DNA from: a virus
Direction: 5' to 3' (one strand)
DNA length: 59,587 nucleotides
Virus record (IMG/VR): IMGVR_UViG_3300029309_000030
Span: 1 to 59,587 of that record
The notes under the pieces were generated by a model. It was not told the DNA's origin. It saw only the letters and a list, made by a program, of their open reading frames with translations, and made no database searches. The position numbers and the translations under genes are program-made. Every line of letters begins with the position of its first letter. Positions within the stretch are counted from its first letter, which is position 1. Shown here in pieces: positions 42,848-58,743 of this stretch.

Positions 42848-44206
42848 TTAATCGTCTTTATTTTCAGAATCTAATTTTTGCCTTTTACCATTCTTTGAAG
42901 GGCCGGGACCTGCTTTTGAACCAATAACAATAACCATACCATGAGCAGGTTTCTTGTCATCTTTCTTTTTCATATCCTTAGCACCCTTACCATCAGCAGC
43001 AAACTTTGGTACTTTCTTACCACCATGTTCGACCATCTCTAAGCCTTCTGCTTTTCTTTCTCCCATGCAGTGGGCTTTACCCAAACAATCTTTTTTCTTA
43101 CACGCCGAGCACTCTGCTTTCTGTTCTGTACCACAGTGCGCTTTGTGTATTCTATACTTAATTTCGCTTATCATTTCGTTTCCTAATCTATTTGTAAACA
43201 TATTATCACTCTTTAGTAATCTGTTAGCAATGTGCATTTCTTCCCCGGTGGCCACTGCCTTACCGCCGTATTGTGCGCTGTCCTCCACTCCCTGCCATAT
43301 TTTTTTCCGTCTGGTAGGGTCTTGGTTACCCAAGACTGGAGTATTAGTTGCGCCAGTTGCCCCGGCTGATGATGTAGAAGAACCGTAGCCAGATGTATCT
43401 ACGCCACCTGCGCTAGGTAGAGCACCTTGTACGAATGGTGCGACAGCGGCAAGGGCTAATTCGGGAACACCTTGCTGTATACCTTGTCCTATGACTTGCG
43501 GTATTCTTGCTGCTGTTCCATATTGCTGATAAGCAGTAGGTTGCTGAGCAATCTCGTCTAATCTACTGGCTTTTCTTCCTAACTTATTGCTTCGCCTAGC
43601 AGCCTGTGCTGCTAATTCAAACTGCGCTTCGGGTGCACGAGATGCAATGCGTTGATTTAATGCATTGACATCTCTGAAATTGATAGGAACGCCTGCTTCC
43701 CGTAGACCCAAAAGTTCGTCACGCTCAGCACGAGCGGCCATCCGGTTTTGAACAGCCCCCCTTGCGTCAGCCGCTGTTCTTGTCGATGCTTCTCTTGCAG
43801 CCTTGGCTCTGTTGGCTGCTCGTTGTGCTCGCTGTGCTCGACTTAAACCAACAGTACTCCTTGCACCTCTGGCAATCCCCCCTGTAATAGCAAGTGGATT
43901 AAGACCTTGAAGTGCACCGAAAGCACCACCTGCAAGTCTACTTCTCCCGGAACTACCTAATTCGTGGTCCATAAGTATACCACCAGTAAGAGGGTCATGA
44001 AGCGCAGCGTCTGCATGAATACCGGGGTCAAATTTACCAGTTTTTGGATTGATGAATCTGCCACCAGCACCGCTATAGGCACCTAATAAACCAAACCCCG
44101 CTCCAACTGCCAAAGGGATTAAGGGAACAATTTTTTCTATCTTATCATCGTTTTGTAACAACGACCATGCAGAATCAATCGCATATGATGATTCCGACAT
44201 GTTCAT
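42848..44206 (-). CDS. AW-motif protein with Gly-rich hydrophobic patch and Cys-rich tail
   Basis: ATG 44206 is chosen because GGTG lies 8 nt upstream. The product has 452 residues. It begins MNMSESSYAIDSAWSLLQND, a copy of the shared helix, and has a second, TGEEMHIANRLLKSDN, at about residue 330. After the first copy comes a hydrophobic Gly patch (IPLAVGAGFGLLGAYSGAG), a long Arg/Ala helix region (RAQRAANRAKAAREAS), then a cysteine cluster (CGTEQKAECSACKKKDCLGKAHC) and a Lys-rich tail. The layout suggests an internal virion protein with membrane-active and DNA-binding parts; this is inference. Confidence 0.65.
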   Translation of the reverse strand: MNMSESSYAIDSAWSLLQNDDKIEKIVPLIPLAVGAGFGLLGAYSGAGGRFINPKTGKFDPGIHADAALHDPLTGGILMDHELGSSGRSRLAGGAFGALQGLNPLAITGGIARGARSTVGLSRAQRAQRAANRAKAAREASTRTAADARGAVQNRMAARAERDELLGLREAGVPINFRDVNALNQRIASRAPEAQFELAAQAARRSNKLGRKASRLDEIAQQPTAYQQYGTAARIPQVIGQGIQQGVPELALAAVAPFVQGALPSAGGVDTSGYGSSTSSAGATGATNTPVLGNQDPTRRKKIWQGVEDSAQYGGKAVATGEEMHIANRLLKSDNMFTNRLGNEMISEIKYRIHKAHCGTEQKAECSACKKKDCLGKAHCMGERKAEGLEMVEHGGKKVPKFAADGKGAKDMKKKDDKKPAHGMVIVIGSKAGPGPSKNGKRQKLDSENKDD

Positions 44207-44378
44207 TCGCACGACACCACTCATCATAAGCCTGTTGGATAAATTGATAATGGTCAGCAGCCTCCATCAATAAACTGAGGCTTTGTGAAGAGCCATCACA
44301 GTGATGCTCTATCTTGCCCAAATTCCACAAAGCAACATGTAGCATTTCTTCAAAGAGTTCTTTCCACCAGTCCATCAT
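44175..44378 (-). CDS. Small helical unknown protein
   Basis: The product has 67 residues from ATG 44378, overlapping the previous stop as TAATG, and ends 31 nt inside the following gene. It is predicted helical with Trp-rich start (MMDWWKELFEEMLHVALWNLGKIEHH) and a Cys near each end. The tight coupling on the 5' side supports it as real. No function can be assigned; it may be a distant, rearranged version of the shared W-containing helix. Confidence 0.5.
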   Translation of the reverse strand: MMDWWKELFEEMLHVALWNLGKIEHHCDGSSQSLSLLMEAADHYQFIQQAYDEWCRANEHVGIIICD

Positions 44379-46123
44379 TACAATCTACCTGTGGTAACGA
44401 GAACCAACTCCCGGTCAATAGGCTTTGTGCTTTTAAGCGTACCTCTTTCCTTGAAATGACGGGCTCGGTTAGTATGCGGGTCTTCTGCAACCAGCGTATG
44501 CCGCTTAGTATGACTCATGTCAGGGCCACCCTTGCCGTAAATGCCTCTTCTTCGTCGCTCACGATTTAACTCTTCACGATATTTTACACGCTCAGGTGTA
44601 GATTCATACTTTTTGTCATACTCTAACTTATGACGCTTAGCCTCTGGACTTACCGGATTCTTGAGAAGTCGCCAAGAAAGGTCTATTGGCTCACCTGCTT
44701 GTATCATTTCTTCTTCCTGTTCTTCTAACATAGGTGAATCTTCCATAAGTCCAACTGGAGTATTCAGATAATCTGTCATTCTTTGCTTCATTCTGCCAAA
44801 CTTGCCCGTAGGTAAATCTGGATTACCTCTTACATCTCCGAACCCAGAACCATACTGATTTATTGTAGTAAATGCTCGTTGAGTTTTTGGAGGTTGCATT
44901 TCAAACATGTCGGGTTGTTGTCTAATTCTACCTTGTAATACTCTTACAGAATTGTTCAAAACATTGAAATCATTTTCTAACTGAGGGGTTCGCCTACCAC
45001 CGGACATCATCATAGTCTCTGGAATTCTCGAAACAAAATCTTTGGCTTTTTGCTGAGATAAAGGGAACGGTAACTCTCCACCCTGATAAGAAGGTGGGCG
45101 AGCCATAACTTGAGAATCCGGTTTAACAAACTTACCTGTCAAATAAGGAACTAATAAATCTCTAATTGTAGCGTTGGGATTATTTCTTAGATGAGTTTGT
45201 AACAAGTCATAATCCATTTCGGTAGGTAAGTGACGAGCGTAGTCACCTCGCCTAACTGATTTTATTATCGAGTTCATTTTTTGCACAAGCACTTGAGCAA
45301 GGTCTGGCTCATACTGCATGGCATGCTCAGTGCACATATGATGGGTATAATCTACGCTTCTTAGCGGGTTGGCATACCTTGCTTTCATCATAGGAGGATT
45401 GTTACAACCGGGTATCGTGCAAGTTTCTGGAGCGTCTACGCCTAGCATACTACCCACACTAATTAACTCTGGAGAAGCATCAGGCATGTTTTCAGGAAAC
45501 TCGCCTTGTTTCAATACCAGCACTGATTTTTTCATTTGTTTAGTTTTCTTTTTCTGTTGTTCGATAAAGTTTCTATAGACACCGGCCTCTTTGGTTTTAC
45601 CCATCTCTCTTGCCCTTTGTTCCATGGCAATGGCTGCCTGTGTTTTGTGAGCGTGACTGCGACTACTATTTTTGATTTTACTAACTGATTGCTTTGCTTT
45701 AGCCGGGTCTTTGAAGCCAAGCCCGTGAATAGTACCTTTTGGATTCTCATCAGTATACAAATCGGAATGTTTCTTCGAGCCTGCGGGCTGACCTTTCTTA
45801 CGAGGTATACGAGGTGCTTTTATCAACACGCTTTTCACAACTGTTGGTTTACCACCAACTCCTTGTTTCTTGGCTCGCTTACGCTTGGTCGCTGCTCGCT
45901 TTTGTCCACTAGTCATCTCGCCGCTAGTCTTTGGAGTCTTACTCGATACTCTTACACTTGGTCGACACTTTGGATAACCTTTACTACCTTTCTTGGCTTT
46001 CGACCTGCCACAAGGTGGGTGTTTACCATCTTTACCTCGACGACTGACATCAACCCACTTTTCTTTGAACCACCTGTTAAGGTTCTTGACAATAAGAACA
46101 TCATGACAGGTGCATTCTGACAT
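44378..46123 (-). CDS. DUF5872-type basic protein with AW motif
   Basis: The product has 581 residues. Residues about 10-95 (NRWFKEKWVDVSRRGKDGKHPPCGRSKAKKGSKGYPKC region, then GEMTSGQKRAATKRKRAKK) match the small basic domain annotated DUF5872 in marine phages and giant viruses. A zinc-finger-like part follows (CTIPGCNN...MCTEHAMQY, about 235-275). Near residue 470 it has QAGEPIDLSWRLLKNP, an internal copy of the shared helix. The C-terminus is basic (KYREELNRERRRRGIYGKGG). It probably binds nucleic acid and is carried in or assembled with the virion. Confidence 0.7.
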   Translation of the reverse strand: MSECTCHDVLIVKNLNRWFKEKWVDVSRRGKDGKHPPCGRSKAKKGSKGYPKCRPSVRVSSKTPKTSGEMTSGQKRAATKRKRAKKQGVGGKPTVVKSVLIKAPRIPRKKGQPAGSKKHSDLYTDENPKGTIHGLGFKDPAKAKQSVSKIKNSSRSHAHKTQAAIAMEQRAREMGKTKEAGVYRNFIEQQKKKTKQMKKSVLVLKQGEFPENMPDASPELISVGSMLGVDAPETCTIPGCNNPPMMKARYANPLRSVDYTHHMCTEHAMQYEPDLAQVLVQKMNSIIKSVRRGDYARHLPTEMDYDLLQTHLRNNPNATIRDLLVPYLTGKFVKPDSQVMARPPSYQGGELPFPLSQQKAKDFVSRIPETMMMSGGRRTPQLENDFNVLNNSVRVLQGRIRQQPDMFEMQPPKTQRAFTTINQYGSGFGDVRGNPDLPTGKFGRMKQRMTDYLNTPVGLMEDSPMLEEQEEEMIQAGEPIDLSWRLLKNPVSPEAKRHKLEYDKKYESTPERVKYREELNRERRRRGIYGKGGPDMSHTKRHTLVAEDPHTNRARHFKERGTLKSTKPIDRELVLVTTGRL

Positions 46124-46659
46124 TAATTAAAACCTCTTATTCTCTTCAAATCACGAGCGACTTCTTCGTCAGTGACAGGTTTGTTAGTTTTGCGACGGTA
46201 TGAATCAGGTACAATTGATTGTCTAGCAGCGCTTCTTATTGTAGCAAAGAAGTTCTGTAATTCTTCGTCACTCATTGGTGTATTGAAATCTCTTGGTTCG
46301 TCACTAGCAACGGGCGGTGCGTTAAGTTGGGCTTCGAGTGCTGCTGCCTGTTCTCTAAACCTACGAGCATCGCCGGGGTTGCGAGAAAAGTCTGCTTGTG
46401 TATTGAGGTCAAGAACTTGTAAATCTGGCTGTGTTTCATAAATTCTAGTTCCACCAAGAGAGGGGAAGCCGCCAAAAAAAGGACCGGGTTTTGCGCCACT
46501 AGGTCCGTAACCTAATGTATTACCACGAGGTGTATAGGTTTCTCGCATTTGCTGCATAGTTTGAAAGTGCCTCATGTCTTTTTCTGGTGTATCTTCAAAG
46601 TCTAGCACGCTAGGTTGAAGAGCCTTAAGGACAGACCAAGCAGATTCAAACGGATTCAT
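46123..46659 (-). CDS. AW-LLK motif protein
   Basis: The product has 178 residues from ATG 46659, with GGGGGAG upstream and a 4-nt overlap with the preceding stop. It starts MNPFESAWSVLKAL, then an acidic stretch, a Gly/Pro-rich extended middle, and a helical C-terminus (DEEVARDLKRIRGFN). No catalytic motif was seen. It belongs to the run of genes whose only common feature is the N-terminal helix. Confidence 0.65.
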   Translation of the reverse strand: MNPFESAWSVLKALQPSVLDFEDTPEKDMRHFQTMQQMRETYTPRGNTLGYGPSGAKPGPFFGGFPSLGGTRIYETQPDLQVLDLNTQADFSRNPGDARRFREQAAALEAQLNAPPVASDEPRDFNTPMSDEELQNFFATIRSAARQSIVPDSYRRKTNKPVTDEEVARDLKRIRGFN

Positions 46660-47303
46660 TTCTTCTCCCCCTTTTTCTTACGGAATTTGCCTCGGCAGTA
46701 TTGCACCGCCCAGCCGTTCGCATAAGCAGAGGGGTAAACTTTGAACTTACGCTTGGCTGCTGCTTTACCAGCAGGGCACAACTTTTTTTCTAAGAAGTCA
46801 AATGCATTGTCTATACCAACACAGTGCCCACAATCGCAACCCTTAGCCATGTCATCGGTAGGCTCGTGAGTATAGATGTCGCCATCTTCGTGAACAAATA
46901 TTTTACCTTGACGAATCATATCGTTAAGAGTAGATTTTAATTTTTCTTCATCGGGCACCACCTTTCTAAGATTTTTCATACCCAAAGCGCCACCTTCTTT
47001 TTCTATTTCACGCAAGATAACCTGCTCAGTATCTTCCATAGCCTTTTTCAACTGAGGATGAAACTTCATAGTTACCTTTTTAGCATCTTTTTTGACTGAT
47101 TTACCGTCGACTAATACTTCGATTGGATATGGTTCGTGTTTATCATACCAATAGGCCATTTCGTAGCCACCGTTCTTTAACAGTTTAACAAGTAAGCCTC
47201 TTTCATAATCTTTATCTTCGGCTTGAAGCACCATTTCTTTACCTCTCGGTAAAGTCAAATCTGGGTCTTTTTGCTTCTTTAGAAGTTCCCACCACGCTGT
47301 CAT
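46656..47303 (-). CDS. AW-LLK motif protein with CPAGKAAAKRKF-type C-terminal domain
   Basis: ATG 47303 is chosen: AGGTGG lies 8 nt upstream and it overlaps the previous stop as TAATG. The 215-residue product opens MTAWWELLKKQKDP. A beta/helical middle (LVKLLKNGGYEMAYWYDKHEPYPIEVLVDGKSV) and a winged-helix-like segment (EEKLKSTLNDMIRQGKIFVHEDGDIY) follow, then CDCGHC and a basic end (CPAGKAAAKRKFKVYPSAYANGWAVQYC). The latter is a small recurrent domain in marine phage and giant virus proteins. Nucleic-acid binding is likely. Confidence 0.7.
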   Translation of the reverse strand: MTAWWELLKKQKDPDLTLPRGKEMVLQAEDKDYERGLLVKLLKNGGYEMAYWYDKHEPYPIEVLVDGKSVKKDAKKVTMKFHPQLKKAMEDTEQVILREIEKEGGALGMKNLRKVVPDEEKLKSTLNDMIRQGKIFVHEDGDIYTHEPTDDMAKGCDCGHCVGIDNAFDFLEKKLCPAGKAAAKRKFKVYPSAYANGWAVQYCRGKFRKKKGEKK

Positions 47304-47644
47304 TAACAATTCCACCTTTTCAATGCCGCACCTTTCGGTGTCAATTTGCCACCTTTACTAGTTGGACCCTTAACTCCACTCATACGAGCGCAGAACGATT
47401 TACGCCTCTTGGCTTTCTTAGAGCCGGGTTTGAGTTTACTCGGTTTGGTTGTAACTGGTCTTTTCAGGTTTGCACCTGTTTTGCGCTTAGCCTCAGCACG
47501 ACCTTTAGCACTCAGGCCGCCTGTCCGAGCATGTTTCTTTTTATTATAGCCATGGAACGGTTTTGACTTTGCTTTTAACACTTCAAAAGCGAGTTCAGCG
47601 GGACTACAACAGTCACAAAACTGAAACTCAAAGTCTCCGCCCAT
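47303..47644 (-). CDS. DUF6321-type basic protein with AW-like helix
   Basis: The product has 113 residues from ATG 47644. It starts with CDCCSPAELAFEVLKAK, a variant of the shared helix with Phe in place of Trp, followed by a strongly basic domain: ARTGGLSAKGRAEAKRKTGANLKRPVTT, then KAKRRKSFCARMSGVKGPT and ALKRWNC. This matches the DUF6321 pattern seen in cyanophages and giant viruses. It is likely a DNA-binding or virion-packaged protein. It forms a trio with the two adjacent basic-domain genes. Confidence 0.75.
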   Translation of the reverse strand: MGGDFEFQFCDCCSPAELAFEVLKAKSKPFHGYNKKKHARTGGLSAKGRAEAKRKTGANLKRPVTTKPSKLKPGSKKAKRRKSFCARMSGVKGPTSKGGKLTPKGAALKRWNC

Positions 47645-47924: not shown

Positions 47925-48144
47925 CTTTTTCACCTTGCTTCAACTTCTCCATGGCGTTGTATCTGAGTACTCTGACCATCGAAGACAAATCTTTGACTTC
48001 TGACTGAGTAGATTCTAATTTTTTAGCAATAGTATAGATTGCCAAGGCTAAAGCGACTATACTTAGGCCAGTAATTAAATCCCAGAACATGCTTGTGGGT
48101 AAACGATACCCTACTTGAACTTTGGTGTCACTTAGTAACTTCAA
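47902..48144 (-). CDS. Single-pass membrane protein with coiled-coil tail
   Basis: The product has 80 residues from TTG 48144, overlapping the previous stop; the start is uncertain because no clear ribosome site is seen. One membrane segment (MFWDLITGLSIVALALAIYTIA) is followed by a charged coiled coil (KKLESTQSEVKDLSSMVRVLRYNAMEKLKQGEKDE). Its topology resembles small phage lysis or virion-anchoring proteins, but no signature was recognised. Confidence 0.6.
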   Translation of the reverse strand: MKLLSDTKVQVGYRLPTSMFWDLITGLSIVALALAIYTIAKKLESTQSEVKDLSSMVRVLRYNAMEKLKQGEKDERQTKK

Positions 48145-49067
48145 GCAGTTTGGTCAACAGCGGTTTGTCGAGCGCCGCCTTGCTTTCCAAGTTGCCTCGC
48201 AAGTTCCATTAACCTTACTTGACTCATGGCCTGTGGGTCAACAGTTCTCCTAAGTCTTGTTTGTAGTGGGATTACTCTTTCATTCATAGGTGCTGAGCGA
48301 GGCCCCATACCTTGAGGTTGGTCTGGTCTCATGGTAAATCCGGTCATAGACTCTTGGGGTCTGAAAGGGTTGGGTTGATTATCAATTGATTGCCGTGTTC
48401 TAATTCCTCTTCGACCTCCACGACCTGCTGTTTCTAATTGTTCGTTGATTCCGCCAGACTTTGGTTCAGGCTTCAAGTCTACTTCTGCTGGTCTGTCAAA
48501 CTCAGTGCTCTGCTGTTGAGCAAACTGTTCGAGTATATCTGCTGTATTTTGAGCAACGGTAGGCTTGCCTGTTCTTTCTTGTTGAGTTTCTACAGGTTTA
48601 GTATCTCTTCTAAGCCTTGTTGGACTTGCTACACCGACATTTGTTCGGAGCATGCCTTCTTTCATTCGGTAAGGAGTAAAGCCTTGTTCGCCTCTAGCAC
48701 CGCTTTCCATCCTACGCCTTGCAGCACCTACTCCTCTACGAGCCATACCTCTTTCCGGTTGAGTCATAAAGGCTTCTTCCGGCATAGTTTCTGTGATTGG
48801 TATAGATTCATATGCGTCAAGGTTTCTACCGCTGCCCATTCTTGACATGGTAGTCTCACCTAATGGAGTAATGTCTTGCATGACTGTGGGGTAGCCCTGC
48901 CTTGTTGCACCAGAAAAGTCAACAAAAGGAGGTAGACCTTGTGCGCCTTCTCTTCTTTGCCTTTCTATCATGCTAATCAAGGTATCAGGTCGCAAAGACC
49001 CCATTCCACCTTGTGCCAAAGGGTCTGCCTTTAGTAATGCCCACGCCTGCTCAAAGGCTCTCATCAT
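48141..49067 (-). CDS. AW-LLK motif protein, Arg/Gln-rich
   Basis: The product has 308 residues from ATG 49067 (a second ATG follows). It opens MMRAFEQAWALLKADP, one of the clearest copies of the shared helix. The remainder is Arg/Gln/Pro/Met/Gly-rich and probably disordered (RRGVGAARRRMESGARGEQG; RTRQSIDNQPNPFRPQ). The high basic content suggests nucleic-acid contact. It is directly downstream of the lyase gene, with 17 nt between. Confidence 0.65.
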   Translation of the reverse strand: MMRAFEQAWALLKADPLAQGGMGSLRPDTLISMIERQRREGAQGLPPFVDFSGATRQGYPTVMQDITPLGETTMSRMGSGRNLDAYESIPITETMPEEAFMTQPERGMARRGVGAARRRMESGARGEQGFTPYRMKEGMLRTNVGVASPTRLRRDTKPVETQQERTGKPTVAQNTADILEQFAQQQSTEFDRPAEVDLKPEPKSGGINEQLETAGRGGRRGIRTRQSIDNQPNPFRPQESMTGFTMRPDQPQGMGPRSAPMNERVIPLQTRLRRTVDPQAMSQVRLMELARQLGKQGGARQTAVDQTA

Positions 49068-49084: not shown

Positions 49085-49912
49085 CTAAGATAAAAGAACA
49101 TTGGTTAAAGAACGAGCGATTCGAGCAGCATCAGCGAGGTCTTCTTCCTGTAAACCACAGTCAAAACCCCATGCGTTTAGATGGCGTACCAAGGTCTGAG
49201 TGCTTAGGTTAGCCCCACTACCCTCGGCAAACGGACAGCCGCCAAGTCCGTTAATACTACTGTCAAACTGCTTGATGCCATTGAACAAACCGCTTCTTAC
49301 CAAAGCAAGCGCTCGCTGCTCATCTCCTTTGTGATGTAAATGTAAGCCCGGCACTAGTCCTTCGTCAAGTGCCATCTCAGCCCAAAGTGCAACTTCTTGT
49401 TCACTTGCTACGCCGACAGTATCGGCAAACACTACAGTGTTGCCAAACATCTTAGCATCTCTCAGACAAGAAAACATGGTCTGTGGCTTGATAACTCCAC
49501 TGTAAGGGCTACCGAAAGCCATGCTGATGTAAACTCTGACATTTTCTTTGGGCACTTTGTCCATGAAAGTTTTGTACATCAAAACTATTTCTTGCCGTGT
49601 CTTACCCATATTGTTAATGTTAAAAGTCTCACAGGGGCTAAAAACTATGTTAATTTTTTCTACACCAGTTTTGACAGCCCGGTCATAGCCCCGCTTATTC
49701 ATTACCAACCCGGCACCAAAGCCAGTGAACACTTTTTCCGCATCAGCCATTTGAGGTAAACGCTTAGGATGTGCAAAACTAACTTCTTCGATGTTTTCTA
49801 TACCTGCTCTATAAAGTGCGTTAATGAGATTCTTTTTGTCGTCTGTGTCGATGATGTGCTCAAGGTATTGTAAACCGTCACGAGGACCGACCTCATAGAC
49901 GGTTACTTTCAT
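49085..49912 (-). CDS. HMG-CoA lyase-like DRE-TIM metallolyase
   Basis: The 275-residue TIM-barrel enzyme starts at ATG 49912, overlapping the upstream stop by 4 nt. Hallmarks of hydroxymethylglutaryl-CoA lyase are present: VGPRDGLQ (Arg11, Asp12), His191 and His193 in GLHLHH, the signature GLGGCPFA with Cys226, and Asn235 as a further likely metal ligand. In that family these cleave HMG-CoA to acetoacetate and acetyl-CoA. The complete catalytic set suggests an active enzyme, either on HMG-CoA or a related 3-hydroxy-acyl substrate. As an auxiliary metabolic gene in a virus it could redirect host leucine breakdown or isoprenoid precursor supply; the true substrate cannot be read from sequence. 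Confidence 0.85.
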   Translation of the reverse strand: MKVTVYEVGPRDGLQYLEHIIDTDDKKNLINALYRAGIENIEEVSFAHPKRLPQMADAEKVFTGFGAGLVMNKRGYDRAVKTGVEKINIVFSPCETFNINNMGKTRQEIVLMYKTFMDKVPKENVRVYISMAFGSPYSGVIKPQTMFSCLRDAKMFGNTVVFADTVGVASEQEVALWAEMALDEGLVPGLHLHHKGDEQRALALVRSGLFNGIKQFDSSINGLGGCPFAEGSGANLSTQTLVRHLNAWGFDCGLQEEDLADAARIARSLTNVLLS

Positions 49913-50085
49913 TCAATCCCCTTCCTCATACCGTCAAAACAAGCCTGATGAAACTTTTCAACTTCTTCGTCACTACTAAAGACTTTGAAGTCAGTAGTTT
50001 TGTCATTAATTATCGCAAACCAAGCCCATGCGTAGCCTATAAGAAAGGCCACTAAAAAATATCCAAGTAGTGTAACAGCACCCAT
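49909..50085 (-). CDS. 58-residue membrane protein coupled to the lyase gene
   Basis: The ATG at 50085 opens a frame ending in an ATGA overlap with the lyase start. The N-terminal membrane helix (VTLLGYFLVAFLIGYAWAWFAII) is followed by a short acidic cytoplasmic tail (FSSDEEVEKFHQACFDGMRKG). No strong ribosome binding site was found. The stop-start overlap and protein-like composition support it. Function unknown. Confidence 0.6.
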   Translation of the reverse strand: MGAVTLLGYFLVAFLIGYAWAWFAIINDKTTDFKVFSSDEEVEKFHQACFDGMRKGIE

Positions 50086-50116
50086 GTCGGAGCCTAAAGT
50101 GGTTTAAAAATTAAAC

Positions 50117-50656
50117 TTATTGGTCGAACTGTAGTGGTTGAGGTCCACTACCAGCCCTAACTTTTGCCAGCGCTTGTCCTAAAGGTGTCATACTCTGCCT
50201 TAACTGTTCAAGGTCAGGTCTGAAAGGTGCAGGGGTTAAACTACCTGCCATACCGATGTTAGCAGGCGGAGCGCTGCTCGGTACATCAGGTAGTTCTATT
50301 CCTTCTGCTTCAATATCTTCCGCTGCTCGCTGTCTTTGTAAATCAACCATTGGACCCACATTTTGGCTCGCTACATCAATATCCCTATCATAGTCGTCGG
50401 CAAAAAGGTTTGATTCTCGAATAGCATTTAAGAGGTTATCTGTGTGTTCATCTCGTGAATAAAAATCTTTTGAGTAGCCGGGAATAGAAAGATGTCGACC
50501 TAGTTCTTGAACAAGTAATTTTCGTCGGTCAGTCTCGTCGACTCTAGCATCAATCAAATCTTGCAGGTTTTTAATTTCGTCTTGTTCCATTTCTGGTCGA
50601 TAAATTTCGTGCCCACGCTGCTTAAGCAGTGTCCAAGCGTGGTCGAATGCTGTCAC
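50117..50656 (-). CDS. AW-LLK motif protein
   Basis: The product has 179 residues from GTG 50656, overlapping the previous stop. It opens MTAFDHAWTLLKQRG, then an acidic helical region (QDEIKNLQDLIDARVDETDRRKLLVQELG) and an acidic Pro-rich C-terminal half ending in a possible helix (LEQLRQSMTPLGQALAKV). It is the third of four consecutive genes with the same N-terminal helix but otherwise unrelated bodies. Confidence 0.65.
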   Translation of the reverse strand: MTAFDHAWTLLKQRGHEIYRPEMEQDEIKNLQDLIDARVDETDRRKLLVQELGRHLSIPGYSKDFYSRDEHTDNLLNAIRESNLFADDYDRDIDVASQNVGPMVDLQRQRAAEDIEAEGIELPDVPSSAPPANIGMAGSLTPAPFRPDLEQLRQSMTPLGQALAKVRAGSGPQPLQFDQ

Positions 50657-51111
50657 TGTTGTTGGCCTCCACCTAGTGGACCAAACCTTTTAGGTCTACC
50701 TACATCATGGAATTGAAAATCAGTAAACCTTTCTGGGTCTCCTCCTCTTGAAACACTCATTCCGGGTGCAACGCCTAATTTTTTAGGACCAGCGGGTAAA
50801 CCGAGGACTTTAGGCTGGTCAACGCTTCTACCACGATAGGAAAAAAACGGTGTTTCGTGTATGTAAGGGTCAAATTTGTCACCGTAGTAAAGTCGATTAA
50901 TGTCTGCTGCGATAAGTTCTGTCGTCATTGCGTCTATAGCCGCCCGTTCTATTTCATCTCTCGTTGCTCTACCGTCTGGGCCGGGCTCATCTGGTGCATT
51001 TCTTGCCATATCCATATATGCTGCTGCGTGTGAACGACCTAAGCCTTCTCCACCTGATAAATCACTAAAGTCTGCTTTTAAAAATGCCCATGCTTGCTCG
51101 AATGCTGTCAT
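50653..51111 (-). CDS. AW-LLK motif protein
   Basis: The product has 152 residues from ATG 51111 with GGTGAACA upstream. It opens MTAFEQAWAFLKADF. The body is acidic and helical (ATRDEIERAAIDAMTTELIAADINRLYYGD), with a Gly/Pro-rich C-terminus. No catalytic motif or membrane segment is visible. Confidence 0.65.
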   Translation of the reverse strand: MTAFEQAWAFLKADFSDLSGGEGLGRSHAAAYMDMARNAPDEPGPDGRATRDEIERAAIDAMTTELIAADINRLYYGDKFDPYIHETPFFSYRGRSVDQPKVLGLPAGPKKLGVAPGMSVSRGGDPERFTDFQFHDVGRPKRFGPLGGGQQQ

Positions 51112-51117
51112 TGTTGT

Positions 51118-51765
51118 TCACCGTCTTGAAAAAGATGTTCCGAGTCCAGCCTGTTGTAAATTTCCACCAGTGGAATATGGGAACCTATTGGTTTCCATAA
51201 TAGAAGGTGCGTTTGCACCGAAAGTCAACGCTCTTTGTTGCTCAGGTGTAAGTTCTGGCTCTAGTGAAGGTGCGTAATCATCCATAAGATGTTCTCCGGC
51301 TTCTATCTGTTCGGGCGTGAATTGACTCATGAAAAGTTTATCCATCAATTCCTGTGTAGAGCCTGCTGGCGGCCTGTGAGTTCTTGGGACCCCACCGGCG
51401 TAAGTTTCTTGTCGATAATTTAGCGGCACTGGTGGATGAACGCCCGGATTCTCTGCAACAAATCGTGCTCTTCGGTCAGGATACATAAGTGGTCCTTGGT
51501 CAAACTGTTGAACTCTTGACATACCTTCTCTAGGTGCAAGAGGGAAACTACCTAACTGTTCTCTAAACATGGCAGCCGCTAAATCTGTATGGGGATGCAT
51601 AGCCCTGCGACCTGATTCTGTAACAGTATCAATACCTCCGAACCTATTTGGTTTACCAAGTTCCCTTGCCGACTCCTTTAATCGTCGACGCTCTATATCA
51701 AAAGTCGAGCCGGGGCCCGTAAATTGTTTGAGGACTGTCCATGCTTGCTCAAAAGCCCCGACCAT
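51118..51765 (-). CDS. AW-LLK motif protein
   Basis: ATG 51765 places the shared helix (MVGAFEQAWTVLKQF) at the N-terminus as in its neighbours; the frame is open further upstream to 51858 but those residues look uncharacteristic. The 215-residue body is Arg/Pro-rich and extended (PREGMSRVQQFDQGPLMYPDRRARF) with one acidic helix (FTPEQIEAGEHLMDDYAP). Function unknown. Confidence 0.65.
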   Translation of the reverse strand: MVGAFEQAWTVLKQFTGPGSTFDIERRRLKESARELGKPNRFGGIDTVTESGRRAMHPHTDLAAAMFREQLGSFPLAPREGMSRVQQFDQGPLMYPDRRARFVAENPGVHPPVPLNYRQETYAGGVPRTHRPPAGSTQELMDKLFMSQFTPEQIEAGEHLMDDYAPSLEPELTPEQQRALTFGANAPSIMETNRFPYSTGGNLQQAGLGTSFSRR

Positions 51766-51799
51766 GTAAGCCCTATGACCGTTGAAGATAAAAGCGTTA

Positions 51800-52339
51800 C
51801 TAGATATTATCGTAGACCGCATCGGTAGGCAGGCCGTGATAATCAGCGTAGTCTTCACTTAGTTCATGGCTCCAAGGTTGCTTGCTTTCTTTGTCGTAAG
51901 CATAAACAAAATGCTGGTCTCCATCTAAGTTGGTGCGTATGTGAGGGCGTTCATGAGCACCGTCGAGCACACCCTCGTCAACTAATTTGTTCCAATAACC
52001 AGCCGAATGCCTCTCAACATTGGTTACATGTGTGCCATCTAATTCGTGTTCAAAATGTGCGTGTCCTTGGTCAATCATGTCTTGAATATACTGACGAGAC
52101 TTGTTCTGTCCCCTAACTGGTTCAGCCATCTCAAAATTATTTATCAGCAAACTGTTTAGATAATAATCAGGTCTCATGGTGCCACGAGCCATGCCGTCTT
52201 CTGACTGCCACATGAACCCGCCCATCTGGTCAAGATAGGGCAACATCTTGTAGTGACGACTCTGCTGCATAGGTGGTGGATTGTCATCCGTATAGACAGG
52301 AGCCTTGAGCAAACGCCAAGCCTGCTCGAAAGGGCTCAT
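51800..52339 (-). CDS. AW-LLK motif protein, first gene of the leftward block
   Basis: ATG 52339 gives MSPFEQAWRLLKAP; upstream in-frame ATG 52351 and TTG 52366 are possible but would extend through the iteron. The 179-residue product is His/Tyr/Asp-rich (QGHAHFEHELDGTHVTNVERHSAGYWNKL; LDGDQHFVYAYDKESKQPWSHEL) and seems folded, unlike some of the later ones. A TCTAAACCC iteron ends 1 nt before the ATG, so this gene adjoins the control region. No known family is recognised. Confidence 0.65.
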   Translation of the reverse strand: MSPFEQAWRLLKAPVYTDDNPPPMQQSRHYKMLPYLDQMGGFMWQSEDGMARGTMRPDYYLNSLLINNFEMAEPVRGQNKSRQYIQDMIDQGHAHFEHELDGTHVTNVERHSAGYWNKLVDEGVLDGAHERPHIRTNLDGDQHFVYAYDKESKQPWSHELSEDYADYHGLPTDAVYDNI

Positions 52340-52340
52340 G

Positions 52341-52588
52341 TCTAAACCCATGAGCGAACAGGACAAAAAGCCATCGGTTTGTTTGGTATACCAAAATTTT
52401 TCTAAAAATTTTTTTTGGTCGAGCGCCGTGTGTGGTTAAAAGGAGTCTAAACCCACATCTAAACCCAAGCCTCCGCCTAAGCGTCTAAACCCAGCGCCGT
52501 CTAAACCCGGCGTGGGTTGCAGACTAGGCGAACAGGCTCGCAGTACATCGGTCTATAGAGAAAAGGGTTTAGGCTGAAACCTAAACCC
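52341..52588. repeat. TCTAAACCC iteron cluster
   Basis: TCTAAACCC occurs at 52341, 52446, 52458, 52484 and 52500. A near copy CCTAAACCC is at 52580 and an inverted GGGTTTAG at 52565. The four central copies lie within 63 nt. Such a cluster at the junction of two divergent gene blocks is typical of initiator or regulator binding sites at a replication origin or operator. Confidence 0.7.
52390..52420. repeat. AT-rich imperfect dyad
   Basis: CCAAAATTTTT, a CTA centre, then AAAAATTTTTTTTGG form an imperfect inverted repeat made almost wholly of A and T. It lies between the first iteron and the main iteron cluster. It could be an easily melted origin element, or a promoter region for the leftward genes. 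Confidence 0.5.
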
Positions 52589-52662
52589 TAACGCAGTCAC
52601 TCGTTCTATAGAACGCTGCCCGTCGCTGCTGTCGGGCTCGCAGTGTTGCATTCTATAGAACG
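52551..52662. repeat. Three TCTATAGA palindromes
   Basis: GTCTATAGAG is at 52551, the perfect 12-nt palindrome GTTCTATAGAAC at 52603-52614, and TTCTATAGAACG at 52651. The last two are followed by similar context (CGCT). They are spaced 45-55 nt and lie just beyond the iterons, suggesting dimeric protein binding sites. Confidence 0.6.
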
Positions 52663-52764
52663 CTTCACTCATGCGTATCTAACTAAGCGGAAATTCGAGC
52701 GGGCTCCATGATAGTCATTTACAGGGGGCTAAACGCTGTACTGCGAGCCATTCGGCTGGTTCGG

Positions 52765-52796
52765 TATATAAAGAACTAATAAAGGTTAGGTAGTGA
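52765..52796 (+). promoter_or_regulatory. 32-nt promoter cassette, copy 1
   Basis: The copy begins TATATAAAGAACTAATAAAG and ends in AGG...TGA, exactly 32 nt. It is the most divergent copy in its last third. No start codon occurs 5-7 nt after it, unlike the gene-linked copies, so its transcript may be noncoding. Confidence 0.7.
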
Positions 52797-52920
52797 GAAT
52801 CACCACATCAACCAACCAACGAACCAACCAACCCGACTTGGTCGGGTCGGGTCGGCTCAGTTTTGAGCCGGTTCGCTGGGATTGGTTCGCAGTGTGGTGG
52901 TTTTCTGCTCGACCATCCGG
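52797..52920 (+). ncRNA. Possible structured RNA from promoter copy 1
   Basis: Between two promoter cassettes lie two adjacent perfect hairpins: ACCCGAC (52831-52837) with GTCGGGT (52841-52847), and CGGCTCA (52853-52859) with TGAGCCG (52864-52870). Upstream is an unstructured AACCAACC-rich segment. A 43-codon GTG frame also fits here but its product is not protein-like. No start codon follows the cassette at the usual distance. A short structured RNA is inferred. Confidence 0.35.
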
Positions 52921-52925
52921 TTGAG

Positions 52926-52957
52926 TATATAAAGAACCAATAAAGAATAGGTGCTGA
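52926..52957 (+). promoter_or_regulatory. 32-nt promoter cassette, copy 2
   Basis: The copy begins TATATAAAGAACCAATAAAG, then has AGG and TGA at the same positions as the others. It is again not followed by a start codon at 5-7 nt. It directly precedes the second hairpin-containing noncoding stretch. Confidence 0.7.
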
Positions 52958-53180
52958 CTAACCTCGGTTTGGTCGGAGAGCGCCTCCGAACCCGACCCAC
53001 TACCCAACCTCGCCACGCTCAGTCATTATCATGCGTTCTTATTCACATAAGCAAACGCTTTACTGCTAAGCAATTCATATTATTATCATATTATTATTAC
53101 AATTATTACAAGTATTACACTATTACATTCTATAATATATATCTCTAGGGAGTTACTGTAATCATCATAACTATTCCAAT
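52958..53180 (+). ncRNA. Possible structured RNA / leader from promoter copy 2
   Basis: A GC-rich 5' part can fold (CGGAG with CTCCG around 52974-52990, flanked by complementary GGTTTGGTC-like and GAACCCGACC segments). It is followed by the AT-rich tract. A 65-codon GTG frame exists but gives a low-complexity Tyr-rich product and looks spurious. Whether this is an RNA gene or a long leader for the tiny frame at 53182 cannot be decided by eye. Confidence 0.3.
53075..53150. other. AT-rich tract, candidate DNA unwinding element
   Basis: About 75 nt consist almost only of TTA/ATT-type repeats (attattatcatattattatt and similar), ending in TATAATATATAT. Together with the iterons and palindromes 500-700 nt away it makes this region a candidate replication origin. 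No initiator gene was identified in the window. Confidence 0.4.
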
Positions 53181-53181
53181 T

Positions 53182-53262
53182 ATGACTATTGAACACCTTG
53201 AAAACATCATAAACGGCTTACTGCGAGCCGACTCAATTGTAATATTCACATTCACTATATAA
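53182..53262 (+). CDS. Possible 26-residue peptide
   Basis: ATG 53182 starts a 26-residue frame (helical start MTIEHLENIINGLLRAD) whose TAA stop is formed by the TATA box of the next promoter cassette (TATATAA). The same stop-in-TATA arrangement ends the better supported gene at 53451. There is no ribosome site at the usual distance (GGGAG is about 30 nt away), so the call is weak. Confidence 0.3.
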   Translation: MTIEHLENIINGLLRADSIVIFTFTI

Positions 53263-53287
53263 AGAACCAATAAAGATAAGGAAGTGA
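53256..53287 (+). promoter_or_regulatory. 32-nt promoter cassette, copy 3
   Basis: TATATAAAGAACCAATAAAG is followed by ATAAGGAAGTGA. A TTG start follows after 5 nt (53293). It is identical to copy 4. Confidence 0.75.
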
Positions 53288-53292
53288 TTGAC

Positions 53293-53451
53293 TTGTATAG
53301 AATCAACCAACACGGAGTAGCAATAATGATATGTTGCGAAAACGACATGGAATTAGACTGCCAAATTGATTGGCGTGGTGTCTACGATTACTGGCGATGC
53401 CGAACCTGTTTCAAAAGGATTACAGACCGTGAAGAAGAATTCAATATATAA
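53293..53451 (+). CDS. 52-residue zinc-knuckle protein, first early gene
   Basis: TTG 53293 lies 5 nt after the TGA of the promoter cassette, the spacing used by the other cassettes; ATG 53326 is an in-frame alternative with GGAG upstream. The product has Cys pairs CC (13-14) and CRTC with a further Cys between, suggesting a small zinc-binding fold. The TAA stop is inside the TATA box of the next cassette. The function is unknown. Confidence 0.55.
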   Translation: MYRINQHGVAIMICCENDMELDCQIDWRGVYDYWRCRTCFKRITDREEEFNI

Positions 53452-53476
53452 AGAACCAATAAAGATAAGGAAGTGA
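53445..53476 (+). promoter_or_regulatory. 32-nt promoter cassette, copy 4
   Basis: TATATAAAGAACCAATAAAG followed by ATAAGGAAGTGA; ATG of the next gene is 5 nt downstream. Its TATA box overlaps the stop of the preceding gene. Confidence 0.85.
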
Positions 53477-53481
53477 AAAAT

Positions 53482-53796
53482 ATGGATAATGTAAGAACAG
53501 TACCTGCACCTAACAGCGAGCGAGGCAAAGAATACATTGTAGAAATAAGAACATGGTTTGACAAAGTCAACGGTAACAGTTATTTCTCAGCAAGGATATA
53601 CGATTTGAGAATGAACTTACTCAAGGTAGTGCCGTTCCAATACGGATACGGTAGCCATCCGAGGGATGTCTGTGTGGCTCACATTCAAGCAATGAACAAA
53701 GTTCATCAGCACAAATTTGAGATATCAAGAAAGACATACTTCAATGAAATGAAGTCACTAAAGAGAGACTGCGTAGCATTTGGAGAGGAAGAATGA
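53482..53796 (+). CDS. Small unknown early protein
   Basis: ATG 53482 follows cassette 4 by 5 nt. The 104-residue product is mixed alpha/beta: a strand-rich first part (KEYIVEIRTWFDKVNGNSYFSARIYD), then a helix with HIQAMNKVHQHKFEI. It ends in an ATGATG overlap with the next gene. No family recognised. Highly regulated expression from its own promoter is likely. Confidence 0.65.
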   Translation: MDNVRTVPAPNSERGKEYIVEIRTWFDKVNGNSYFSARIYDLRMNLLKVVPFQYGYGSHPRDVCVAHIQAMNKVHQHKFEISRKTYFNEMKSLKRDCVAFGEEE

Positions 53797-53930
53797 TGAC
53801 ACACAAACAAATCTTGACTAATTCATGGCAGAACGAATCGGAGTATAGAGAATATTGGATTTGCCATCGCTGTGGAAATGCAGAATTTGTAAAAATATGG
53901 AATCAAAGAGGAACTATAAACACATTTTGA
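53793..53930 (+). CDS. 45-residue protein with one CxxC knuckle
   Basis: ATG 53793 overlaps the previous stop and has GGAGAGGAAG upstream. The product (TNSWQNESEYREYWICHRCGNAEF...) holds a single C-H-R-C-G knuckle, suggesting a dimeric zinc site or half a ribbon. It is second in a two-gene operon from cassette 4. Function unknown. Confidence 0.55.
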   Translation: MMTHKQILTNSWQNESEYREYWICHRCGNAEFVKIWNQRGTINTF

Positions 53931-53936
53931 ATTCAA

Positions 53937-53968
53937 TATATAAAGAACCAATAAAGAAAAGGAGATGA
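53937..53968 (+). promoter_or_regulatory. 32-nt promoter cassette, copy 5
   Basis: TATATAAAGAACCAATAAAG followed by AAAAGGAGATGA, the most common version (copies 5, 6 and 7 are identical). ATG follows after 6 nt. Confidence 0.85.
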
Positions 53969-53974
53969 AAAAAT

Positions 53975-54412
53975 ATGGAACTGAAACACCTAAGAGCATT
54001 TAACATTGAATTGACAAACGACTTTCAAAATAACTGTCGCACTATAACGATTCTCGATAACCGACATCACCACCGAGTCGAACTGACGACATGGGATTGG
54101 GGTCTAAGTCTTAGAGGCATTGCAGACAGATGGTTCAAATATATGGATATTGAAATTGAATCCTTTACTTACCTAAAAGATGAACATTTGGTATATCTAA
54201 CCAAAGATTTCAGAACCCAAATTTATGACGAGAAGGCTTTACACATACCACAATGGATTGGAGGCACTCTCATTCAAATAGTTATTGACTTCCCAAGTGG
54301 AAAGGTTGAGATTCTTGCAGAAAGAGAGCCGTCAAAGATATACAGAACTGATTGTATCTATCAAGAAAATTACATAAAAGAAAAAACTGAGTTTGATGAA
54401 TGGCATTTATGA
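53975..54412 (+). CDS. Unknown early protein, 145 residues
   Basis: The gene is monocistronic under cassette 5. The product has alternating strands and turns (CRTITILDNRHHHRVELTTWDWGLSL; GGTLIQIVIDFPSGKVEILAE) and an acidic C-terminus. No motif or membrane segment is seen. It may be one of several host-takeover proteins encoded in this strand. Confidence 0.65.
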   Translation: MELKHLRAFNIELTNDFQNNCRTITILDNRHHHRVELTTWDWGLSLRGIADRWFKYMDIEIESFTYLKDEHLVYLTKDFRTQIYDEKALHIPQWIGGTLIQIVIDFPSGKVEILAEREPSKIYRTDCIYQENYIKEKTEFDEWHL

Positions 54413-54419
54413 AATTCAC

Positions 54420-54451
54420 TATATAAAGAACCAATAAAGAAAAGGAGATGA
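54420..54451 (+). promoter_or_regulatory. 32-nt promoter cassette, copy 6
   Basis: Identical in sequence to copy 5. It starts 8 nt after the preceding stop; ATG follows after 6 nt. Confidence 0.85.
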
Positions 54452-54457
54452 ACAAAC

Positions 54458-54691
54458 ATGACATTTGACCATGATATAGAACCAATTGACGGCTTTCACC
54501 CTAAGTATAAATCATTAGCATATTATGAAATCGAACCGCACTACGGAAGTTATATCTTAACTTCGCCTGCTAAAGAAGGTTCGATTTTAATGAGCGAGGA
54601 TGATGCAAGGTGGATGTTTGAAGATAGATTCGATGACAGATATGGCTACTTCGTAGATGATTACCTAGACCATTTTGAAACAGAAGAATGA
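54458..54691 (+). CDS. Small acidic early protein
   Basis: The 77-residue product is very acidic and aromatic (SEDDARWMFEDRFDDRYGYFVDDYLDHFETEE). Such highly acidic small proteins in viral early regions are often DNA mimics or inhibitors, but no specific similarity is recognised. It is monocistronic under cassette 6. Confidence 0.65.
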   Translation: MTFDHDIEPIDGFHPKYKSLAYYEIEPHYGSYILTSPAKEGSILMSEDDARWMFEDRFDDRYGYFVDDYLDHFETEE

Positions 54692-54698
54692 GATTCAA

Positions 54699-54730
54699 TA
54701 TATAAAGAACCAATAAAGAAAAGGAGATGA
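54699..54730 (+). promoter_or_regulatory. 32-nt promoter cassette, copy 7
   Basis: Identical to copies 5 and 6; it starts 7 nt after the preceding stop. ATG 54736 follows after 5 nt. Confidence 0.85.
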
Positions 54731-54735
54731 GAAAA

Positions 54736-55053
54736 ATGAAAATACAAGAATTTGAATACAAGAATGACAGCAAAGCAGCAATAAAAAAACTAAGGCAATT
54801 ATGCAAAGAAAAAGAAACTAAAGAAGTCGGAGTCCGAATGAAAACAGATGTGTGGGATTCAGTCAATGTACACATACCGATTAAATACGCTTGTAACTAT
54901 ATCAACGCAGTAGTCAGTGATGTTAACGAGCATAGGAATTGGGAATGGGTACAGTCAGCAGATTTGAAAATAAACATTTCAACAAGTCGGTTTTTTGTAT
55001 ATGTCAATGCATCATGTGAAGTAACTCGCATGCCAAAGAATGAAGAGGAGTGA
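54736..55053 (+). CDS. Unknown early protein, 105 residues
   Basis: ATG 54736 is chosen by the 5-nt rule; an in-frame ATG at 54727 is part of the ribosome-binding element. The product has a basic helix (KAAIKKLRQLCKEKETKE), a central segment (VNVHIPIKYACNYINAVVSDVNEH) and two cysteines. It is the first of four co-directional genes under cassette 7. Function unknown. Confidence 0.65.
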   Translation: MKIQEFEYKNDSKAAIKKLRQLCKEKETKEVGVRMKTDVWDSVNVHIPIKYACNYINAVVSDVNEHRNWEWVQSADLKINISTSRFFVYVNASCEVTRMPKNEEE

Positions 55054-55058
55054 ATCAA

Positions 55059-55205
55059 ATGTTCGAAGATATCAAAGACGCTGTGCTAGACATGACACTA
55101 TCACACTTGAACACAGCACTACATTATCACATCATCGAATTGATGGAATCAATCAATCAGACTCTTGACGAGTTTCAAGAATTAGCGGAGACAATAGGTG
55201 AATAA
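55059..55205 (+). CDS. 48-residue helical protein
   Basis: ATG 55059 follows the previous stop by 5 nt with GAGGAG upstream. The product is a nearly continuous amphipathic helix (LSHLNTALHYHIIELMESINQTLDEFQELAETIG), so a small coiled-coil dimer is likely. It might modulate a partner protein, but nothing identifies it. Confidence 0.55.
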   Translation: MFEDIKDAVLDMTLSHLNTALHYHIIELMESINQTLDEFQELAETIGE

Positions 55206-55207
55206 AT

Positions 55208-55576
55208 ATGACAGAACCATGTAAATGCGGAAGCACAGAACACGAAGCAGTCACAAGTAAAGGACTAGGAGGCATGACTACTATTACATCATGCCCTCTT
55301 GAAATAGCGAAGGTACATGAAGCGATAAAAAAACCCGTTAGAATGTATAGTCGTATCAGTTCTAGTGGTGTCAAGCATTACCACGATGAAGAAGGTTGGC
55401 AAGAAAGATATCAAGCAGATGTAGATAAAGCAGAAGCGAGATTCTTTGATGAGTCAAGTTACACAATACTACACCTTCATTATCAATTAGATATGAGCCA
55501 AAAAGGTTTCAGCAATATCACGCCACAGCACTTAGAAGCAGCCAAACTTAGAGATATAGAATTAGGAGAGGAATAA
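55208..55576 (+). CDS. Unknown early protein with N-terminal Cys/His cluster
   Basis: ATG 55208 follows after 2 nt, with GGTGAATAA upstream. The 122-residue product begins CKCGSTEHEA...SCPLE, a likely zinc site, and continues with a central basic segment and helical C-terminal half (QADVDKAEARFFDESSYTILHLHYQLDM). It belongs to the cassette 7 operon. Not assigned to a family. Confidence 0.6.
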   Translation: MTEPCKCGSTEHEAVTSKGLGGMTTITSCPLEIAKVHEAIKKPVRMYSRISSSGVKHYHDEEGWQERYQADVDKAEARFFDESSYTILHLHYQLDMSQKGFSNITPQHLEAAKLRDIELGEE

Positions 55577-55577
55577 A

Positions 55578-55826
55578 ATGACATGGAGAACACAATACTG
55601 TTACAGCAAAGAAGAAGGAATAACGCTAATGAATGGCAATCATATCATAGGTGGTAGATACCCTCCTCAAGCGAAAGGATTGACAGCGAAATACGGAGAA
55701 GTTACTCACTTTCCCACTGTTAGAGGATTACTCAAGTATTTGAGAACTCAATACCCTCAATGGGTTTGGAGGTCTAAATTAACACACTACTACGGCACTA
55801 TTGTCGAGATACAAACGAAAATGTAG
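55578..55826 (+). CDS. Small unknown early protein
   Basis: The 82-residue product starts at ATG 55578 after GGAGAGGAATAA. It looks compact and alpha/beta (YCYSKEEGITLMNGNHIIGGRYPP; HFPTVRGLLKYLRTQYPQWVWRSKL). It is the last gene of the cassette 7 operon. No recognised motif. Confidence 0.6.
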   Translation: MTWRTQYCYSKEEGITLMNGNHIIGGRYPPQAKGLTAKYGEVTHFPTVRGLLKYLRTQYPQWVWRSKLTHYYGTIVEIQTKM

Positions 55827-55833
55827 ATTTGAA

Positions 55834-55865
55834 TATATAAAGAACCAATAAAGATAAGGAGATGA
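55834..55865 (+). promoter_or_regulatory. 32-nt promoter cassette, copy 8
   Basis: TATATAAAGAACCAATAAAG followed by ATAAGGAGATGA; ATG of the ArdC-like gene follows after 5 nt. Confidence 0.85.
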
Positions 55866-55870
55866 AAATT

Positions 55871-56821: not shown

Positions 56822-56823
56822 AT

Positions 56824-57009
56824 ATGAATATAGAACAAAATGAGATTTTCAATGGCAGACACAAAGAACTAGACGAGAACAAATTTAACAGCATCATAAA
56901 AGACATTGAGGATTTTGCTGAATTGGCAAAGTATAGCGATACGGCTCTTTGGCGACTAATGAATATCATGATGGTCGCAAAGGTAGAATATGAAATAGTA
57001 AGGAGATGA
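56824..57009 (+). CDS. Small helical early protein
   Basis: The 61-residue product starts 2 nt after the ArdC-like gene, with GGAGAGGAATAAAT upstream. It is predicted mostly helical and acidic (FNSIIKDIEDFAELAKYSDTALWRLMNIMMVAKVEYEIV). It could act with the ArdC-like protein, being translated from the same message. No family recognised. Confidence 0.6.
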   Translation: MNIEQNEIFNGRHKELDENKFNSIIKDIEDFAELAKYSDTALWRLMNIMMVAKVEYEIVRR

Positions 57010-57015
57010 AGAATA

Positions 57016-57246
57016 ATGACAAAAATAAGATGTGCAAAGTGCTGTAAAATAACAGATGTAGATGATGAAGATATGTGGCAAGGAGAATTAGAGGATGTGG
57101 CCGATGGTCACCTATCCTTTAGATTCACACATTATTGTGAGAACGAAATAAGAGAAGGTGAGGACTGGGAAGAATGCGGTCACACAATCGAAGTCATAAG
57201 ATACGCTAAACTACAAGACTACAGGGATATTGAACAGGAGGAATAA
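57016..57246 (+). CDS. Small zinc-binding early protein
   Basis: The 76-residue product starts at ATG 57016 after AAGGAGATGA, the same ribosome-binding element as in the cassettes but without a TATA box. It has CAKCC near the N-terminus and later Cys residues in HYCENE and EECGH, together a plausible zinc site in an otherwise acidic protein. Function unknown. Confidence 0.6.
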   Translation: MTKIRCAKCCKITDVDDEDMWQGELEDVADGHLSFRFTHYCENEIREGEDWEECGHTIEVIRYAKLQDYRDIEQEE

Positions 57247-57248
57247 AT

Positions 57249-57889: not shown

Positions 57890-57890
57890 C

Positions 57891-57922
57891 TATATAAAGA
57901 ACCAATAAAGAAAGGGAAGTGA
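57891..57922 (+). promoter_or_regulatory. 32-nt promoter cassette, copy 9
   Basis: TATATAAAGAACCAATAAAG followed by AAAGGGAAGTGA; it starts 1 nt after the preceding stop. ATG 57928 follows after 5 nt. Confidence 0.85.
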
Positions 57923-57927
57923 GAAAA

Positions 57928-58548: not shown

Positions 58549-58549
58549 A

Positions 58550-58705: not shown

Positions 58706-58706
58706 G

Positions 58707-58738: not shown

Positions 58739-58743
58739 AAGAA

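Follow-up and report, generated by a model that had tools for sequence, protein, structure and literature searches.

The window analysed here is a whole IMG/VR record of 59,587 nt (59.6 kb). On its minus strand, positions 49085–49912 hold an HMG-CoA-lyase-like (HMGL) gene, which is intact, with an ATG start and no internal stop, and codes for a protein of 275 aa with R11, D12, E42, H191, H193, C226 and N235 as catalytic candidates. Directly upstream on the same strand lies tm58 (49909–50085), the gene of a small single-helix membrane protein of 58 aa. The overlap of HMGL with a small membrane protein gene, pointed out in an earlier note made from the sequence alone, is present and amounts to 4 nt, the stop of tm58 running into the HMGL start as ATGA. 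A Shine-Dalgarno-like AGGAAGGGG (49918–49926, minus strand), read from the sequence, overlies the final codons of tm58, with 5 nt separating it from the ATG of HMGL. A promoter-like element, AATAAGTTTAATTTTTAAACCACTTT (50096–50121, minus strand), is located ~30 nt upstream of the tm58 start and is kept upstream of the cassette in relatives.

The cassette is flanked on the same strand by two genes that lie outside it and serve as context: a downstream one at 48141–49067 and an upstream one at 50117–50656, whose 3′-end overlaps the promoter-like element. Both carry the AW motif (FEQAWALLK at 49055 and FDHAWTLLK at 50647), and there are others. HMGL thus lies among AW-motif genes and is itself free of the motif, as had been noticed before. 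The motif (FEQAWALLK type) occurs at 12 sites in otherwise unrelated proteins, at the N-terminus or in an internal or C-terminal position, and is absent from HMGL and tm58. The regions with the motif, all on the minus strand, are 15399–15869, 36831–38201, 42848–44227, 44378–46123, 46123–46659, 46656–47315, 48141–49067 and 50117–52366. It looks like a targeting or packaging tag.

The encoded protein belongs to the HMGL subfamily

The protein matches the Pfam HMGL-like family with an E-value of 2.2e-21 (76.9 bits, above the gathering cut-off of 29) and the NCBIfam hydroxymethylglutaryl-CoA lyase profile NF004283 with 5.7e-61, at 206 bits below the curated cut-off of 246. These matches are far above chance and confirm the HMGL homologue proposed earlier. 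Every other DRE-TIM family in NCBIfam scored at most 32 bits, versus 206 for HMGL. When a profile of the viral sequences was compared with PDB, all top matches were HMGLs (human HMGL, 1e-57; homocitrate synthase, 6e-10). An AlphaFold2 model of the window protein (pLDDT 94.2, pTM 0.92) retrieved human HMGL 2cw6 as the first Foldseek match (E-value 1.5e-25, TM 0.89). HMGLs occupied ranks 1–14, and other DRE-TIM enzymes appeared from 4e-14, an E-value some eleven orders of magnitude above that of the first match. The profile, PDB and Foldseek scores rule out homocitrate synthase, isopropylmalate synthase, citramalate synthase and 4-hydroxy-2-oxovalerate aldolase as identities. Placement with homocitrate/isopropylmalate synthase or aldolase groups, which the earlier note had named as grounds against its assignment, did not occur, both profile and fold pointing to the HMGL subfamily. 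The window protein is an HMGL-subfamily enzyme, no other DRE-TIM enzyme being as near to it as HMGL, and its identity to characterised enzymes is ~32%. Judged from its sequence, it is likely to be catalytically active and to cleave HMG-CoA or a closely similar compound.

Catalytic residues are kept and neighbouring positions have changed

The residues R11, D12, H191, H193, C226 and N235, singled out before as those of an HMG-CoA lyase, are all present and invariant in 21 aligned viral relatives. In a joint alignment of the viral set with 79 cellular sequences and human HMGL, positions R41, D42, E72, N138, D204, C266 and N275 (human numbering) are conserved in both the viral and the cellular sets. 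The R-D pair, E72, N275 and the cysteine of the signature loop (GLGGCP) are invariant across them. Fixed within the viral set are E37, R41, D42, Q45, E72, N109, D204, T205, G262, G265, C266, P267 and N275. In work on HMGCL ternary complexes, human R41, D42, H233, H235 and C266 reportedly act in catalysis.

Fixed or nearly fixed viral differences comprise N46-E47 after GLQ, which is replaced by S/A/Y-L, S201 by V, A130 by P and A272 by S. The S201 position is S in 65% of cellular HMGLs and V in the viruses. The cellular HxHDT (or HxHNT) motif reads HxHHK in the window and HxHH, HxHK or HxHE in all viral members. N46-E47, A272 and the D-T after HxH are almost fixed in cellular HMGLs and changed in the viruses, and the acyl or CoA part of the substrate may therefore differ. 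Some bacterial homologues also vary at the sites changed in viruses, and one of them departs from HxHDT.

The metal ligands can be assigned in two registers. In the ungapped HMMER and MAFFT alignments, H193 falls on human H233 and K195 on H235, a register shifted by two. We prefer H191/H193 (equivalent to H233/H235), as originally proposed, as putative metal ligands, since no other histidines are kept throughout the viral set, down to its divergent members (HLHK, HLHE, HMHH), and both fall in a strand predicted at 187–194 in the AlphaFold2 model.

A recurrent cassette with its own promoter-like element

A one-helix protein of 50–60 aa whose gene ends exactly 4 nt into HMGL was found at 35 of 45 loci, as well as in the window. 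Among representatives at 90% identity, tm58 with the exact 4-nt overlap was present in 23 of 45 (24 were scored; L303 turned out to be a different ORF). The relatives have Shine-Dalgarno sequences (GGAGAGG, GGAGGGG and similar) in the last codons of the small gene, shortly before the HMGL start. The conserved MRRG ending of the small protein is partly explained by this location. About half of the viral representatives are without tm58, so the small protein is not required in every virus. The remaining neighbours of HMGL differ from locus to locus. A tm58 profile matched in three of 28 records, each time next to HMGL, and in none of 15 HMGL-negative relatives; no convincing Pfam or PHROG family match was found for tm58. 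At two loci (L025, L034) an extra small gene, zinc-ribbon-like or with the AW motif, separates tm58 from HMGL, which shows that the two need not overlap. At three others, from two lineages (L018, L052, L232), a different small ORF (MTRCxLLDxW...) replaces tm58 before HMGL.

The promoter-like element was detected in 24 of the 45 representatives (90% identity) and in none of 144 control stretches. AAGTTTAATTTYTACACYGC is positioned ~30 nt upstream of the start of the small gene, a spacing that would fit a TATA-like box if the archaeal transcript is leaderless. In the tm58-less lineages L046, L267 and L301, a similar element is found ~31–38 nt ahead of HMGL itself. The element is the only strong copy in the window, the next-best score (12.3) being the same as in shuffled sequence. 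It differs from the TATATAAAGAACCAATAAAG promoters, which are repeated ten times along the right arm. We regard the gene overlap as the most informative feature of the locus, one that points to a recurrent, apparently translationally coupled cassette with a promoter-like element of its own.

The right-arm promoters form a 42-nt block, TTCAATATATAAAGAACCAATAAAGAAAAGGAGATGA, present in ten copies before the genes at 52760–58743 (plus strand), in which the TATA box comes first and a Shine-Dalgarno-like sequence and the start come after it. Where the two oppositely transcribed arms meet (52539–52664), there are three 26-nt repeats (CGCAGT...TTCTATAGAACGCT), possibly a regulatory site or an origin.

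Sampled viral HMGLs form one clade

A search in related viral contigs, as suggested in the earlier note, revealed HMGL relatives with 54–99% identity in at least 80 IMG/VR contigs (52 loci in an IMG/VR scan with the window protein; 80 out of 174 relatives retained in an alignment scan). All homologues are intact, and pairwise dN/dS values of 0.037–0.157 (11 pairs) indicate strong purifying selection, which together rule out a decaying gene. Among 30 long records picked by MCP similarity, 15 carry HMGL; five of these HMGLs are clearly divergent (217–273 bits when re-scored), and one is cut at the contig end.

The nearest cellular relatives are bacterial, with 32–39% identity, and none exceeds 39% among the best 80 of 582 matches (GTDB species). 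In a maximum-likelihood tree of 116 proteins, among which there are no Poseidoniales homologues, the 35 viral HMGLs, divergent ones included, make up one side of a branch supported at 100/100 and recovered in all bootstrap trees. No cellular row falls inside this clade, and all 79 bacterial sequences lie outside it. Long branches make the root of the tree and the position of the divergent viral members less certain. The phylogenetic placement proposed earlier was obtained with respect to bacteria. A recent capture from a bacterium is ruled out by the tree and by the low identities, which stay at or below 39% in the best 80 of 582 cellular matches. Given low dN/dS and the single viral clade, HMGL has been retained as a working protein through a long viral history. 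The viral HMGLs are most likely an old virus-specific branch, a clade in this tree of viral and bacterial sequences without Poseidoniales. In its host-derived sense, the term 'auxiliary metabolic gene' is at present a candidate label for sequences that appear to form a deep clade of their own.

HMGL was also sought in isolated phages and this source was set aside: INPHARED matches (31–32% identity) were limited to one Acinetobacter record pair and one unannotated contig. One of these records (L240, CAKLQH020000001.1), a 328-kb 'Acinetobacter phage', contains an operon of the leucine-breakdown type with acetyl-CoA carboxylase, enoyl-CoA hydratase and an HMGL labelled leuA_2, and is probably a bacterial chromosome.

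The virus is most likely a magrovirus

The MCP of the window (19676–20809) is nearest to those of the haloarchaeal tailed viruses HVTV-1 and HCTV (31–33% identity), and an S78-type prohead protease, a portal and a terminase are also encoded. Neither PolB nor tRNA genes were found in the window, a genome fragment of 59.6 kb. Among 30 records (the window and 29 HMGL-carrying contigs), PolB is present in 16 and an MCP match in 27; a 101-kb relative with PolB has an MCP 95% identical to that of the window. Hallmarks of magroviruses are PolB, portal, terminase, MCP and prohead protease, in genomes of 90–110 kb (PMC10160649, PMC12999244). Based on MCP, portal, terminase and protease in the window and PolB in its relatives, we consider the virus to be most likely a tailed virus of marine archaea, namely a magrovirus of Poseidoniales.

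Several other features were observed. An ArdC-type anti-restriction protein with a zincin-like metallopeptidase domain is encoded at 55862–56821 (plus strand), and an ORF adjoining the terminase (31072–32391, minus strand) has an HNH endonuclease match (phrog_5046, 1e-5). In a lineage with more distant MCPs (L013, L017, L038, L040 and L042; G015, G005, G025, G010 and G026, respectively), PolB matches come in separate pieces. In several records the pieces are on different ORFs ~1.5 kb apart, as in a split gene or an insertion.

Comparison with known HMGLs

With cellular HMGLs (EC 4.1.3.4; human HMGCL 2cw6/3mp3; bacterial 1ydo, 2ftp and 6nds; NF004283) the viral enzyme has in common the TIM-barrel fold, the R-D pair, E72, the GLGGCP loop cysteine, N275 and an HxH that is putatively equivalent. 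It differs from them in having HxHH(K) rather than HxHDT, S/A/Y-L rather than N-E after GLQ and V in place of S201, in being shorter and only ~32% identical, and in scoring below the curated cut-off. A virus-encoded HMGL-like protein of the same fold is known from Klosneuvirus KNV1 (BFVD A0A1V0SKU2), which is, however, a giant virus of eukaryotes, and its protein is 28% identical in structural alignment. An archaeal protein annotated as HMGL is encoded on a Haloferax plasmid (WP_282351703.1); it has 29.7% identity, is without GLGGCP and sits on a long branch among bacterial sequences.

The presence of HMGL in magroviruses is already known, since Xu et al. 2023 (PMC10160649) count HMGCL as an auxiliary gene of magroviruses and assign it to leucine degradation. 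This is the same kind of gene, most likely from the same virus group as the window. In the available text of that paper it bears a KEGG label only, and neither a phylogeny nor an operon partner, a promoter or an analysis of sites is given. No report was found in the searchable literature of a viral HMGL clade, of altered motifs in its members, or of the two-gene cassette with its promoter-like element. The probably ancient viral branch and the compact promoter/tm58/HMGL cassette seem to be new here.

Discussion

We favour, at a probability of roughly 0.55, the explanation that a magrovirus HMGL of an old viral branch is expressed from the cassette and splits HMG-CoA; within it, we infer the substrate, the timing, the role of the partner and the effect on the host. 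The private promoter-like element would drive both genes of the cassette. The membrane-anchored protein of 50–60 residues would be made first and the lyase next, by coupled translation through the Shine-Dalgarno sequence and the 4-nt overlap. Using a divalent metal (D12, H191 and H193, with N235 nearby), R11 and the C226 loop, the enzyme would convert HMG-CoA or a close 3-hydroxy-3-methyl-acyl-CoA to acetyl-CoA and acetoacetate. It would thereby tap the host pool of HMG-CoA from which mevalonate and archaeal isoprenoid lipids are made, and the carbon would come back as acetyl-CoA. The probable task of the small membrane protein is to assist or position the lyase. Against this explanation speak the HMGL score under the curated threshold, the changed sites, the absence of tm58 from about half of the representatives and the lack of a second HMG-CoA-pathway gene among the two families looked for. 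Of the interpretation offered in the earlier note, an HMGL-subfamily enzyme with its catalytic residues kept, in what is likely an archaeal tailed virus, stands, while activity on HMG-CoA, the cut in lipid synthesis and capture from a host are as yet proposals.

What splitting of HMG-CoA would be for is less clear. The usual bacterial role of HMGL is leucine breakdown, and the mislabelled Acinetobacter match sits in just such an operon. The viral enzyme could carry out the last step in degrading leucine (or isovalerate) in a protein-degrading host, yielding acetyl-CoA and acetoacetate as a supply of carbon and energy during infection, with no anti-lipid purpose, which is how Xu et al. 2023 (PMC10160649) read the magrovirus gene. 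Poseidoniales, the probable host group, are described in published work as degraders of protein and lipid, which would suit such a supply; HMG-CoA and leucine are not mentioned in the Poseidoniales genome literature searched. However, carbon supply would depend on upstream host steps, the membrane partner offers it no obvious benefit, and no acetoacetate CoA-transferase was found in 18 related viral records, which also yielded no HMG-CoA reductase. As a complete account we hold it to be on balance unlikely. Between lipid interference and carbon supply we are undecided, as sequence does not tell them apart. The lack of a reductase or CoA-transferase alongside HMGL, together with the membrane partner, slightly favours lipid interference, whereas the bacterial role and the annotation already published favour carbon supply. 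That the enzyme is an HMGL-fold lyase or aldolase acting on another 3-hydroxy-acyl-CoA or a non-CoA acid appears rather unlikely. The virus-specific differences at N46-E47, S201, A272 and HxHDT, the score below the HMGL cut-off and the ~32% identity to characterised enzymes would agree with a changed substrate, but equivalents of R41, D42, E72, N138, Y167, S169, C266 and N275 are retained, the nearest solved structures are all HMGLs, and some bacterial homologues vary at the same sites.

Two further alternatives concern the history of the gene and its partner. Several transfers from Poseidoniales hosts, with the single viral clade an artefact of missing host sequences, would be compatible with a tree that has no Poseidoniales genome and draws its cellular relatives from the best 80 of 582 GTDB matches. 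We think this improbable, as the clade takes in viruses that share just ~46% identity in their MCPs and no cellular relative among those best 80 of 582 exceeds 39% identity. It is also conceivable that tm58, which comes first and directly behind the promoter-like element, is the effector, acting for instance in lysis or superinfection exclusion, with HMGL carried along as a passenger. Yet HMGL occurs without tm58, sometimes behind the same element (L046, L267, L301), tm58 was never found without HMGL (none of the 15 HMGL-negative relatives), and HMGL is under strong purifying selection, which makes a passenger role very improbable.

Magroviruses are widespread, and their hosts, the Poseidoniales, rank with the most numerous archaea in surface waters of the ocean (PMC10160649). 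A more specific and distinctly doubtful extension of HMG-CoA splitting by a cassette-borne viral HMGL is that the promoter, tm58 and HMGL make up a dedicated module against membrane lipids, in which a membrane-tethered lyase would destroy HMG-CoA, isoprenoid lipid synthesis would stop and acetyl-CoA would be freed for the virus. If true, this would be a viral attack on a lipid pathway on which archaea depend. Archaeal membrane lipids are made by way of HMG-CoA, so whether viruses shut down their synthesis would be open to direct testing. A long-kept HMGL branch under strong selection, with its own promoter-like element and a partner, points to a metabolic node that has repeatedly been worth controlling.
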